From Chitinophagales bacterium (lineage in GTDB: Bacteria > Bacteroidota > Bacteroidia > Chitinophagales > UBA2359), in assembly GCA_020629335.1 (NCBI GenBank), contig JAHDDN010000187.1, positions 1 to 9,784 on the forward strand: a stretch of 9,784 nucleotides of DNA, given 5' to 3'. A model generated the notes under the pieces. The model did not search any database. It worked only from the letters and a program-made list of their open reading frames with translations, and was not told the origin of the DNA. Each line of letters opens with the position of its first letter. Positions within the stretch are counted from its first letter, which is position 1. The position numbers and the translations under genes are program-made. Positions 6,214-9,778 of this stretch are shown one piece after another.

Positions 6214-6232
6214 GATATTTATTATTCAATTT

Positions 6233-6396
6233 TAGTGGTTCAGTTTATAAGTTTCTGACAGTTAAGTTGTAGGATTTTTACGATTATACAAGGCATTTTT
6301 GAGGCCCATAGCAGGGCTACGAAACGAAAAAATAACGAAGTAGAATCGTAAAAAGACAAAACTTGGGCTGTCAAGAACTAATAAATTGAACCATTA
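6233..6396. repeat. Large imperfect palindrome with conserved centre, between HK1 and receiver genes
   Basis: The arms 6236-6289 and 6340-6393 are each 54 nt and complementary at 40 of 54 positions without gaps; the block nearest the centre (TTTTTACGATT/AATCGTAAAAA) is perfect. TAG/TAA just outside almost extends the pairing into the HK1 stop codon (6394-6396). The 50-nt centre (6290-6339) begins AAGGC and ends AACGAA, with ATTTTT 6295-6300 pairing AAAAAT 6328-6333 and a central hairpin TAGC-AGG-GCTA (6309-6319). It has the same layout as 8682-8841. It would be transcribed with the operon and could attenuate, stabilise or process the mRNA. It encodes no protein. Confidence 0.8.
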
Positions 6397-7425
6397 GGTA
6401 CTTGTTTTTGGGAAAGTGAAAAAGAAGCTTGTGCCTTTTTCGGGTTCTGACTCCAACCATATTTCACCACCATAAGAGTTTACGATTCGCTTTACGACCG
6501 TTAATCCTACTCCCGTACTATCTGTTTTATCTTTTGATCTTAAGGTCTGGAATATCTTAAATATCCTTTCAAAGTATTTAGGATCAACTCCATTTCCATT
6601 ATCACTTACACTAAAAGTGTACTTGTTTCCTCCATTTTTGCAAGCAATGTTTATTAAAGGTTTTTCTTTATCATTATGCTTAATACCATTACTTATCAGG
6701 TTTTGAAATACTTGTCGGATTTGTGTTTCATCTGCTTGGATAGTCGGCAATTGATCTATTTCAACAAACTCTTCGGCTTCTAACATATCGACTACTTCAG
6801 AAAGTAAACCATTCAGATCTACTGAAACTCGTTTAGTCTCTGTTCTACCAATGCGAGAATACTCTAATACGCCTTCGATCAACTTATGTAAGCGTTTTAC
6901 TCTTTTACGCAATAAGGTCAAATATTCTTTGCCTTGATCATCCAACTTATCTTCATAATCTGTCGCTAACCAATCAGATAAAGAACCGATAGACCGTAAG
7001 GGTGCTTTAAGATCATGTGAAACTACATAAGCAAATTCATTCAATTCCTTGTTTACCTTGAATAGATTATCTTCTGTTTCACGAATTTTATGTGATAAAT
7101 CTTCTATCAATTCAGAAATCTCTAAAATTGAAAGAGAATCTGCATCTTTAAACTCCAGTAAATCATTATTAGCCGTCAAAGTAACGACTGCTCTTTTTAA
7201 TTGATTTAAAGATTTTGTTTTCAGTTCTGACTCTTCATATAATTTTGCATTAGCGCTCGCTAATTCCTCGGAGCTTATATCCATTGACCTAATCAAGAGC
7301 TGTCTGTCTTTCTCATTATGATCATATGATTGATTAATCGCTTTGATTAAGGGCATCATCTCTTCAGGTATCTGATCAACTCCTCCTAAGTTTCTCTTAA
7401 TTTGGCGTAAAAGTAGGCGATTCAT
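6394..7425 (-). CDS. Cytoplasmic histidine kinase HK1, partner of the FIST protein
   Basis: A 343-residue protein without membrane helices. The N-terminal 60 residues (RLLLRQIKRNLGG..., then KDRQLLIRSMDISSEEL) resemble the helical start of kinases commonly encoded beside FIST genes. Residues about 50-130 form a long predicted coiled coil (ELASANAKLYEESELKTK..., ending KVNKELNEFAY). HisKA follows with VVSHDLKAPLRSI (H137) and LLEYSRIGR-like end (188-194), then an ATPase domain with N-box QNLISNGIKH (N242, N246, K249), G1 DNGNGV (275-280) and G2 GVGLTV (305-310). All catalytic motifs are intact. No PAS or GAF sensor domain is visible, which fits signal input through the separate FIST protein. 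The start codon lies 5 nt after the FIST stop, so the two are almost certainly co-translated. The stop is at the edge of the palindrome at 6233-6396. Confidence 0.92.
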   Translation of the reverse strand: MNRLLLRQIKRNLGGVDQIPEEMMPLIKAINQSYDHNEKDRQLLIRSMDISSEELASANAKLYEESELKTKSLNQLKRAVVTLTANNDLLEFKDADSLSILEISELIEDLSHKIRETEDNLFKVNKELNEFAYVVSHDLKAPLRSIGSLSDWLATDYEDKLDDQGKEYLTLLRKRVKRLHKLIEGVLEYSRIGRTETKRVSVDLNGLLSEVVDMLEAEEFVEIDQLPTIQADETQIRQVFQNLISNGIKHNDKEKPLINIACKNGGNKYTFSVSDNGNGVDPKYFERIFKIFQTLRSKDKTDSTGVGLTVVKRIVNSYGGEIWLESEPEKGTSFFFTFPKTST

Positions 7426-7430
7426 TTTTA

Positions 7431-8570
7431 TTAGTTTTCGCTTAGTATGGTAACTGTCATTGTTTGATTATGGAGTTCGCAATTGAACTCATCCGAGAAG
7501 GGAGATATTTCTCCATAGGAATAAAAACCAATCATAGGTGTTTTATTTCCTAACAAATCTGCGGTACTTTCTACTTCCTCTTCTACCATTTGGTCTAAGA
7601 CTAATTTTCTACCTACACAACTAATCAATATGGCAAGCTCTGGATTAGAATCTTTGATGACCATTTTAGCCCCTTCTGCTGCTTGGAATGCCGCATCTAT
7701 GATTCGATCATAATTGGCTCTCATCAATTGTACGGTAGCCCCTTCTGGAAGATCACCTGCAAATGTCATACTTTGGTCCTCTTCATTGACTGATAAGATC
7801 GTTCGAACCAATGGTTTTTTATCATCAGCCAACTGCATATTCAATGGGAATAATAAGCCAGATGCTGGTAATTCATCTGCTTTATCCCCTAAATACTTTT
7901 TATATAAGGCTAAGGCAGATTGACCATCTAACTCATACAATACATTATTCTCTGATTTGGTTACTCTACGTTTAGGACCAAATGGGTCCCAACCTCCTAC
8001 AGAACCAAATCCAACCTTAAATTGATCTCCATAGAAACCAATTCCTACTACATTACCACTAACTGGAGCATCATTTAGTCCAACCAATGTTTTCTCAAAT
8101 CTTGCCCCATCCCCTGCTAAACCTCCTGTAACAGAAATGCCATCACTCAAATCTTCATTGAGCCCTTTCACTAATTCACTCCCATTGATGAACTGACCAT
8201 CTGAGAATACCATTACGTGTTTTAATTTATCTTTTTTAAGGCGGGAAGTCATTTCTTTACCAAGCGCTAAACTGCTATCAAAATCTTTATGATTTAACTG
8301 CTCTACACAAATGTCAGTACGATCTAACTTAATAGCATTCAATACAATACTATCATCTTGTACATTGGTACCAATAATTTCTCCTGAAGTACTACAAATT
8401 ACAATTTGTGCATTGGGATAAAAAGACTGAATTTCTTTATAACGATCAGATTCCGCTAACAAATAGCGATTTCCAAATGCTAATACCAAATTAGCAGCTA
8501 TATTTTCAGTTTGAGAAGAACGATTTTGCCATTGAGTAGCTTGATTCCAACTTTTCTGTTGAGATTCCAT
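7431..8570 (-). CDS. FIST domain sensor protein (FIST_N + FIST_C), possible NosP-like
   Basis: A 379-residue soluble protein made of FIST_N (about 25-210) and FIST_C (about 215-360). Markers include ICSTSGEI near 58-65, HVMVFSDG 118-125, VTGGLAGDGARF 147-158 (the glycine-rich FIST signature), GWDPFGPKRRVTKS 193-206, and the C-terminal GFYSYGEISPF and CELHNQTMTV blocks. FIST domains are proposed to bind small ligands; NosP members of this family are described as haem-binding nitric-oxide sensors that regulate an adjacent kinase. Only three histidines are present (H94, H118, H367), so if haem is bound the candidate ligands are few. This is the first gene of the cluster, preceded by a good Bacteroidetes promoter (8645-8674), and lies 5 nt before HK1. 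Family assignment is strong; the NO role is inference. Confidence 0.92.
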   Translation of the reverse strand: MESQQKSWNQATQWQNRSSQTENIAANLVLAFGNRYLLAESDRYKEIQSFYPNAQIVICSTSGEIIGTNVQDDSIVLNAIKLDRTDICVEQLNHKDFDSSLALGKEMTSRLKKDKLKHVMVFSDGQFINGSELVKGLNEDLSDGISVTGGLAGDGARFEKTLVGLNDAPVSGNVVGIGFYGDQFKVGFGSVGGWDPFGPKRRVTKSENNVLYELDGQSALALYKKYLGDKADELPASGLLFPLNMQLADDKKPLVRTILSVNEEDQSMTFAGDLPEGATVQLMRANYDRIIDAAFQAAEGAKMVIKDSNPELAILISCVGRKLVLDQMVEEEVESTADLLGNKTPMIGFYSYGEISPFSDEFNCELHNQTMTVTILSEN

Positions 8571-8644
8571 ATGTTAATTTTGAGGTAGAAAACAATGTTG
8601 AACGATATTTACTTTTGAATAAAGCATGTAAAACTATACAAAAG

Positions 8645-8674
8645 CAAAATTAGAATTTTAAAAAACACCTACAA
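8645..8674 (-). promoter_or_regulatory. Bacteroidetes-type promoter of the FIST-kinase cluster
   Basis: On the minus strand, TTG (8672-8674) is followed after exactly 19 nt by TAATTTTG (8645-8652), a full match to the -7 consensus TAnnTTTG with the usual spacing from the -33 element. Transcription would begin near 8638, leaving a leader of about 65-70 nt before the FIST ATG (8568-8570). The large palindrome starts 8 bp upstream of the -33 element. Confidence 0.65.
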
Positions 8675-8681
8675 CTTCCTA

Positions 8682-8841
8682 AGGAACGTTTAAAAAATAA
8701 GATTGGCATTTGCAGCTAAATATTTTGTATCAAGACAAGGCGAAAAATGCAGCCGATGCAGCGCATCGGCAAGGCTTTTCAACGAAGTATTGGTACAAAA
8801 GATTAGTTGCTAAATGTGGAAATTATTTTTTAAACGTTCCT
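8682..8841. repeat. Large imperfect palindrome with conserved centre, between divergent promoters
   Basis: The 341-nt gap 8571-8911 holds no gene; this element occupies its middle. The arms 8682-8736 and 8787-8841 are each 55 nt; the outer 19 nt are perfectly complementary (AGGAACGTTTAAAAAATAA) and 40 of 55 positions pair without gaps. The 50-nt centre (8737-8786) starts AAGGC and ends AACGAA; GAAAA 8742-8746 pairs TTTTC 8776-8780, and GCCGATGC-AGC-GCATCGGC (8752-8770) is a perfect 8-bp triloop hairpin. Size and layout match 6233-6396 in the same orientation. It lies just upstream of the FIST promoter and about 37 nt before the presumed -7 box of the plus-strand gene, so it could insulate or modulate both. 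Confidence 0.85.
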
Positions 8842-8877
8842 AAAGATTACTGATACGAGAAAACTTTGAAATTGTTG

Positions 8878-9677: not shown

Positions 9678-9751
9678 CCTTTCCTAATATTTTCATGCGA
9701 GGGCGGACACATAGGTCCGCCCCTACTGGCGCATGAAAATATTAGGAAAGG
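9678..9751. repeat. Nested palindrome after the secreted protein gene
   Basis: The outer arms 9678-9699 and 9730-9751 are perfect 22-bp inverted repeats (ending CATGCG/CGCATG). Inside, GGGCGGAC 9701-9708 pairs perfectly with GTCCGCCC 9715-9722 across the loop ACATAG. The inner part resembles a short palindrome (GGGCG..CACATAGGT..CGCCCCTAC) that I recall from intergenic DNA of several phyla, which would need a search to confirm. It begins 16 nt after the stop codon and could end transcription from either side, although no T-run follows on the plus strand. Confidence 0.75.
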
Positions 9752-9755
9752 TCGG

Positions 9756-9778
9756 GCTATCCGCTCTTATGTGGCTAT
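9756..9778 (+). repeat. Short dispersed repeat, copy 2, at the window edge
   Basis: This stretch matches the reverse complement of 1625-1647 at 22 of 23 positions and directly adjoins the nested palindrome. The sequence continues to 9784 (GCTACT, matching AGTAGC beside copy 1) and is cut by the window, so the full repeat length is unknown. Confidence 0.6.

Follow-up and report, generated by a model that had tools for sequence, protein, structure and literature searches.

Two palindromic elements with an ERIC-type core in a Chitinophagales contig are probable miniature transposons with a strand-specific hairpin

Enterobacterial repetitive intergenic consensus sequences (ERIC, also called IRU or RU-1; 127 bp) have been reported in Enterobacteriaceae and Vibrionaceae (PMC10969869). 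Their printed consensus runs outer stem-AAGGC-inner stem...inner stem-AACGCA-outer stem, and a TA duplication has been described for them (PMC2759123). The orientation of ERIC was found to be crucial to its effect on Yersinia mRNA, and as of 2007 a transposase-driven movement of ERIC and similar repeats was without experimental support; in a 2007 review, matching ends of insertion sequences (IS) are described as mostly unsought or not found for such repeats (PMC2229807). In this study we analyzed a stretch of 9,784 nucleotides of a Chitinophagales bacterium (assembly GCA_020629335.1, contig JAHDDN010000187.1; hereafter the window) which carries two palindromes, elements 1 and 2. Like ERIC they are palindromic and intergenic, appear to have TA ends, and share an asymmetric junction, which reads AACGAA in the window and AACGCA in ERIC. 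An earlier reading of the window made from its sequence alone (the sequence-only reading) had known of no named element with this design; the core design of ERIC is, however, closely similar. We consider it probable that the palindromes are non-autonomous DNA transposons, i.e. miniature inverted-repeat transposable elements (MITEs), which belong to a cross-phylum ERIC-type superfamily, are moved by IS5-type transposases and keep a strand-specific hairpin.

Both elements (Table 1) consist of 54-nt arms and a 50-nt core of the form AAGGC-N39-AACGAA, with the triloops at centre positions 24-26. The window has two matches to the pattern ACAAGGC-N{25,55}-AACGAAGT; 200 dinucleotide shuffles of it had none. 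Compared with shuffles of the full elements, the folds reached z values of -10.1 (element 1) and -11.8 (element 2), and the elements scored 79.9 and 100.4 bits, respectively, in a covariance model to which both belong. None of the 4227 models of Rfam 15 matched either element at E values up to 5. The sequence-only reading had already described the arms, the 50-nt centres, the triloops and the AC-AAGGC...AACGAA-GT junction, all of which we retain, but it had set the bounds of the second element one base outside 8683-8840 (158 nt) on each side. Its estimate of about 73-74% arm pairing is close to the gapped column counts in Table 1; without gaps, element 1 pairs at 42 of 60 positions.

The two palindromes are members of a larger family. 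We searched 99 genomes, namely that of locus L001 (Bacteroidetes bacterium isolate MAG-52, a metagenome-assembled genome) and its relatives, and found the strict core pattern in 19 of them. The seven richest genomes contained 61, 18, 18, 11, 11, 8 and 5 places (132 together). The pattern in reverse, used as a control, gave 8 places in these seven genomes; several of the single matches elsewhere seem to be due to chance. As the first copies were picked by an exact 15-base pattern, the core conservation among them is biased. The loci fetched gave 101 pattern matches, of which L151 is no element and was excluded from later counts. Of the elements with usable context, 85 of 86 lay outside script-predicted open reading frames (ORFs; at least 80 codons) and one lay inside a 94-codon ORF. 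With the covariance model R1 (E up to 1e-4, at most 12 candidates scored per genome, strict filters) matches were obtained in 11 of 296 genomes in the phylum of the L001 genome, two of which (G001, G076) are sources of model sequences. A second phylum, that of the genome with L017 (Proteobacteria bacterium), had been searched with the same limits as a negative control and gave matches in 48 of 299 genomes. Therefore, a restriction of the family to Bacteroidota was rejected. Among the 11 genomes behind loci of FIST, a window gene described below, R1 was positive in two, both Marinifilum (2 and 4 places, the latter in Marinifilum flexuosum DSM 21950), and in none from Chryseolinea or from the eight titled as other groups. 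Among the pattern matches listed for viral contigs no locus had arms matching at more than 50% over 30 nt, and a plasmid collection contained no match to element 2. Titles and abstract openings of the openly licensed literature yielded neither a description of this family in Bacteroidota nor a link of ERIC to IS5. The sequence-only reading had made the family depend on a search for further copies; since more copies exist between genes and their arms pair far above shuffles, the family is no coincidence. Besides, we observed four core-like loci in genome G264 (L302, L311, L318, L323) with a longer central hairpin, apparently shorter arms and no clear target duplications.

For the arm and strand counts L164 and L231 were removed from the representatives because of odd or duplicated ends. 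The arms differ between subfamilies, and their GC content ranges from 22 to 61% among representatives. Nevertheless, each left arm found its best match in its own right arm in 20 of 20 representatives when the whole arm was compared, and in 17, 12 and 12 of 20 for the inner, middle and outer 20 nt. In an alignment of 37 matches 91.4% of the cells pair and both sides change in 25 of 25 pairs, which was reached by none of 500 shuffles; an alignment of 60 matches from two phyla gave 92.5% and again 25 of 25, both alignments being fitted to the structure of the model. Arm position 3 and positions 18-21 were paired in at most half of the 20 representatives, and positions 50-55 were paired in 18-20 of them with varied letters. 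The stretch from AC through the core to GT measured 54-57 nt in 34 of 35 representatives and 73 nt in L302. The copies found, the pairing of arms with their own partners and the changes on both sides bear out the earlier proposal of a true family in which the core is conserved, the arms co-vary and selection acts on the folded form.

The copies also show the marks of mobility. They have terminal inverted repeats and agree up to fixed tips, as is typical of MITEs; genome G021 alone contains nine near-identical copies at nine sites, which diverge outside the TA. Both tips were found in 83 of 96 distinct copies (window included), 62 of the 83 have TWA on both sides, and in 49 of these the two agree (25 TAA, 24 TTA) and thus form target duplications. 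CTAG is the usual site of the elements in G017 and also of those inspected in G008. Among 66 neighbour genes whose 3' end faces an element, the stop codon lies exactly in the target duplication in eight and is off by one base in three more. Two orthologous sites were examined, and both are empty in the relative. In L001 the distance from the stop codon of the histidine kinase HK3 to the start of the response regulator RR is 10 nt compared to 180 nt in the window, an empty site by synteny. A DNA comparison showed that the site of the G019 insertion L197, at a stop codon (TAA in G019, TAG in G014), is empty in G014. According to the sequence-only reading, inverted duplications might have been generated in place around a core. 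Copies at separate sites, however, have their arms in common up to a fixed boundary and are flanked by target duplications, and therefore the arms travel with the element. At 158 nt the elements are too short for an internal transposase gene. In the G009 copies L159 and L170 the left and right arm tips are swapped, and L232 (G011) is a chimera with arms of two subfamilies, which suggests recombination between copies or arms. Moreover, part of the element is tandemly duplicated in L231 (G011), with two cores 118 nt apart, and some G021 copies (L273-L277) carry extra short palindromic inserts of few recurring kinds in arms or core. The strong folds and the intergenic sites would also fit a regulatory RNA of the host, or a terminator hairpin, which is multi-copy by happenstance, but target duplications, empty sites, recent copies at multiple sites and the lack of an orientation preference (see below) make this explanation very improbable.

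IS5 elements generate target duplications of the YTAR type. The duplications described above, of TWA or YTAR type, are those expected of an IS5-mobilized or Tourist-like element. For PIF/Harbinger transposons the duplication is given as TWA, and they were treated together with bacterial IS5 in one superfamily analysis (PMC4482050). In genome G294 we identified an 858-bp IS bounded by GAGCCTGTTTAAA, ends which it has in common with the local elements; pieces of its transposase match DUF4096, DDE_Tnp_1 and the NCBI IS5_3 model. In genome G271 an IS5_3 reading frame of 273 codons without interruption (247.8 bits) is located between CTAG-TGCTGCGTCAAG repeats, and the local element L304 has similar ends (CTAG-TGCTGCATCAAG and TGCTCCGTCAAG). 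Altogether the IS5_3 model matched in 5 of 20 element-bearing genomes, and in 2 of 20 (G294, G271) an IS shares the ends of local elements. L285 is a truncated element beside a transposase; in the spans between distant ends at L264 and L270 none of the listed ORFs was recognized as a transposase by eye. Judging from the ends and targets shared with an IS in two genomes, an IS5-family transposase acting in trans would recognize the outer tips of both arms and would then insert the element at TWA or CTAG sites.

Pairing within the arms is biased to one strand. On the AAGGC strand the non-Watson-Crick pairs of the arms comprise 133 G.U and 47 A.C, with 46 and 3 in the inner 17 positions; for non-partner arms the G.U share is 56% (p ~1.7e-6, p-values being optimistic as the representatives share ancestry). 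G.U is in the majority in 29 of 35 representatives, A.C in three, and three are equal; using one representative per genome the counts are 113 and 39. Arm positions 22-30 taken alone showed no significant G.U excess (11 vs 5). Within families, 80 changes of a Watson-Crick pair led to G.U and 33 to A.C, counts that are dependent through shared ancestry. The AAGGC strand folded at lower energy than its complement in all 35 representatives, also for the arms alone. In control palindromes, built from the same left arms and cores with random mismatches, it was favoured in 88 of 140. In the second phylum it was more stable in 25 of 25 distinct elements (26 listed, L374 and L382 being one place), which come from 23 of the 48 genomes with matches; there G.U amounted to 102 and A.C to 40 with the duplicate removed, although the script had misplaced the junction in a few (e.g. 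L375, L385, L386). L368 and L370, which lie at contig ends and were left out of these counts, also have the more stable AAGGC strand. Folding thus agrees with the folded form (RNA or cruciform) of the sequence-only reading, but a symmetric cruciform alone is insufficient because the pairing is biased to one strand. For persistence or spread the AAGGC strand would also have to fold single-stranded, most simply as RNA, and this need may be what preserves the stem with its imperfections, its AAGGC/AACGNN internal loop and its capping hairpin despite the drift of the arm sequences. As a first guess, by analogy with ERIC, the folded strand might act in the processing or stability of transcripts containing it.

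Several observations weigh against an element moved by IS5-type transposases and kept by its folded strand. The IS in G294 is interrupted by one in-frame stop, and its two flanks differ (TTA, TAA). The one IS5 model searched revealed no matching IS in the remaining 18 of 20 genomes; three of these (G086, G199, G023) possess IS5_3 transposases with ends unlike the elements, and 15 are without an IS5_3 match. Moreover, none of the 15 loci with PF01609 (12 matches) or PF13359 (three) in 10 genomes had element ends as terminal repeats. The TWA flanks disagree in 13 of the 62 copies (nine in G021, two in G014, one each in G023 and G076), and TWA is absent from at least one side in 21 of the 83, some of them CTAG-type or mutated. 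A 123-bp form lacking 41 nt of the core is multi-copy in G008 and G017 (seven sites inspected), and hence the core hairpin is not needed for mobility in these genomes. With respect to codirectional genes the elements are evenly oriented (27 to 23). This speaks against a function in host mRNA tied to one orientation, and we rejected that candidate function accordingly. Furthermore, the strand bias fits RNA and single-stranded DNA alike and cannot separate the two.

The coreless form would also suit an ordinary MITE in which only the terminal repeats matter, and whose inner pairing would stem from its palindromic origin and be maintained by template switching from arm to arm; the swapped tips and the chimera show that exchange between arms or copies happens. 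Arm exchange would, however, wipe out the asymmetry of AAGGC/AACGNN as well as the places that are recurrently unpaired, and neither the G.U excess on one strand nor the strand energies are predicted by it, so that we regard this possibility as quite unlikely. Alternatively, the selected single strand could be DNA, whose folded form is used or produced during mobility or replication. The even gene orientation fits such a role apart from host transcripts, whereas the target duplications and the IS5-type ends point to double-stranded cut-and-paste, and the GC skew of the flanks revealed no replication-strand bias (96 copies, mean -0.014, p 0.14; AT skew p 0.025). We consider a DNA strand unlikely.

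The AAGGC/AACGCA junction of ERIC is present in the window elements with AACGAA as its right-hand part. In the ERIC consensus it occurs at one of the two symmetric places that fit the geometry, with a chance of ~1.5e-5, a post hoc value. The predicted loop pattern of ERIC was also found in 24 of 35 representatives and in none of the 35 complementary strands, and the AAGGC strand was more stable in all five ERIC sequences folded, in one by only 0.6 kcal/mol. The window targets TTAG and TAA both contain TA, but their duplications measure 3-4 bp. An ERIC query matched 5376 of the 5426 E. coli genomes searched. AACGCA is missing from the junction in the printed Salmonella ERIC and in L376, a copy from E. 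coli. Since L376, the first locus, lacks it, a second ERIC search, for a copy with AACGCA, used the right-hand part of the consensus as printed; it supplied L397 and L398, and L398 is thus a chosen copy. Model R1 gave no significant score on the ERIC loci. With model R2 three ERIC copies obtained 21.1 bits (E 0.006), 9.2 bits (E 2.5) and 6.5 bits (E 9.7). That run also gave 11.2 bits (E 0.9) to a position in L376 outside ERIC. These scores could reflect convergence on a common RNA motif instead of common descent, as could the copies without AACGCA, the ERIC arms of 27 nt, which are about half as long, and the longer central hairpin of ERIC. On the other hand, the fitting place of the junction, the apparent TA ends, the equal loop pattern and strand preference, and the R2 alignment of all three copies in the correct register and strand speak for descent, and we find convergence rather unlikely. 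Outside the junction the 127-bp consensus is not matched, as arms and hairpin differ in sequence and length; therefore, we term the window elements ERIC-like and do not file them as ERIC.

In a wider version of our reading, the structured single-strand (RNA) hairpin could be the lasting unit of an ancient cross-phylum ERIC-type superfamily, whose terminal repeats would have been replaced repeatedly to fit the resident IS5-type transposase and whose success would need the folded strand. We put this forward tentatively, at somewhat less than even weight. The combination of an ERIC-type junction with ends common to a resident IS5-family IS makes the transposase question for such repeats directly testable. 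Moreover, for a DNA transposon the one-strand pairing found in two phyla is uncommon, and a function of the folded strand is predicted from it. A covariance model of the family could also be used to annotate many intergenic repeats that are as yet unexplained.

Pfam matches characterize eight ORFs of the window: a beta-lactamase family protein, DUF2461, the hybrid histidine kinase HK1, HK2, RR, HK3, FIST and a protein with type IX secretion domains. Element 1 is located between HK3 and RR, with the HK3 stop codon inside the right target duplication, and element 2 in the divergent region from FIST to the secretion-domain protein. The closest synteny to the window was found in L001, with a FIST identity of 66% and the common gene order FIST-HK3-RR-HK2-HK1. 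L001 has its own diverged copy of the element 284 nt upstream of FIST. The elements upstream of FIST in L001 (3474-3640) and in the window have equal relative orientation and quite different arms, and may represent either chance or an old shared insertion. At 1510-1657 we observed a sub-threshold match to the Rfam Flavo-1 RNA (28.8 bits, cut-off 42). As its 3' part (1625-1647) recurs inverted at 9756-9778, this region may be another repeat family. A further palindrome at 9678-9751 has 22-nt perfect inverted repeats flanking a GGGCGGAC...GTCCGCCC hairpin. Since its arms have CGCATGAAAAT-TTAGG in common with the terminal repeats that flank a PF01609 transposase of G007 (L280), it may be an IS-derived mini-element.

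Table 1. Positions of the two elements, their parts and their target duplications in the window.
Feature	Position	Strand	Remarks
Element 1	6236-6393	+ (AAGGC...AACGAA strand)	158 nt; bounds from inverted tips TGGTTCAG/TGGTTCAA and direct repeat TTAG
Target duplication left of element 1: TTAG	6232-6235	.	same as 6394-6397
Target duplication right of element 1: TTAG	6394-6397	.	6394-6396 is the stop codon (TAA, minus strand) of histidine kinase 6394-7425
Element 1 left arm	6236-6289	+	pairs with 6340-6393; 45/58 gapped columns
Element 1 core	6290-6339	+	AAGGC, then hairpin with triloop AGG, then AACGAA
Element 1 right arm	6340-6393	+	partner of 6236-6289
Element 2	8683-8840	+	158 nt; bounds from inverted tips GGAACGTTTAAA at both ends and direct repeat TAA
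Target duplication left of element 2: TAA	8680-8682	.	same as 8841-8843
Target duplication right of element 2: TAA	8841-8843	.	same as 8680-8682
Element 2 left arm	8683-8736	+	pairs with 8787-8840; 46/58 gapped columns
Element 2 core	8737-8786	+	AAGGC, then hairpin with triloop AGC, then AACGAA
Element 2 right arm	8787-8840	+	partner of 8683-8736

Other known systems resemble the elements in part. The integron attC site is a folded site with the core RYYYAAC / GTTRRRY; it was set aside on reading the junction, and no integrase search was made. REP/BIME with RAYT (a 20-40 nt hairpin and a Y1 transposase gene, which was not searched for) is unsuited to the size and the target duplications of the elements. 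To our knowledge, RUP and BOX have no AAGGC/AACG core, and Correia/NEMIS elements are known for fixed terminal repeats. RUP and BOX of Streptococcus pneumoniae are small structured repeats with ends like a resident IS (IS630-Spn1, ISSpn2) (PMC3049150) and in these respects are like the present elements; according to their descriptions they are set apart by other IS families. Compared by description, Correia/NEMIS of Neisseria are alike in being hairpin MITEs, which are co-transcribed and processed by RNase III (PMC10969869, PMC2229807). YPAL or RU-2 of Yersinia, about 168 bp, is of the same length class, palindromic and intergenic (PMC2759123), and its sequence as printed there has no AAGGC...AACG junction by eye. 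Tourist-like MITEs and the IS5 / PIF-Harbinger (PHIS) group have the TWA duplication seen here, and ends in common with IS5-family IS were found in two genomes. The ends of plant Tourist elements presumably resemble those of the present elements as well. Unlike Tourist/PHIS, the present elements combine a conserved structured core with one-strand covariation along the whole length. As MITEs they are ordinary in their class; unusual are this covariation on one strand, the constant geometry across two phyla, the ERIC-type core and the exchangeable ends.

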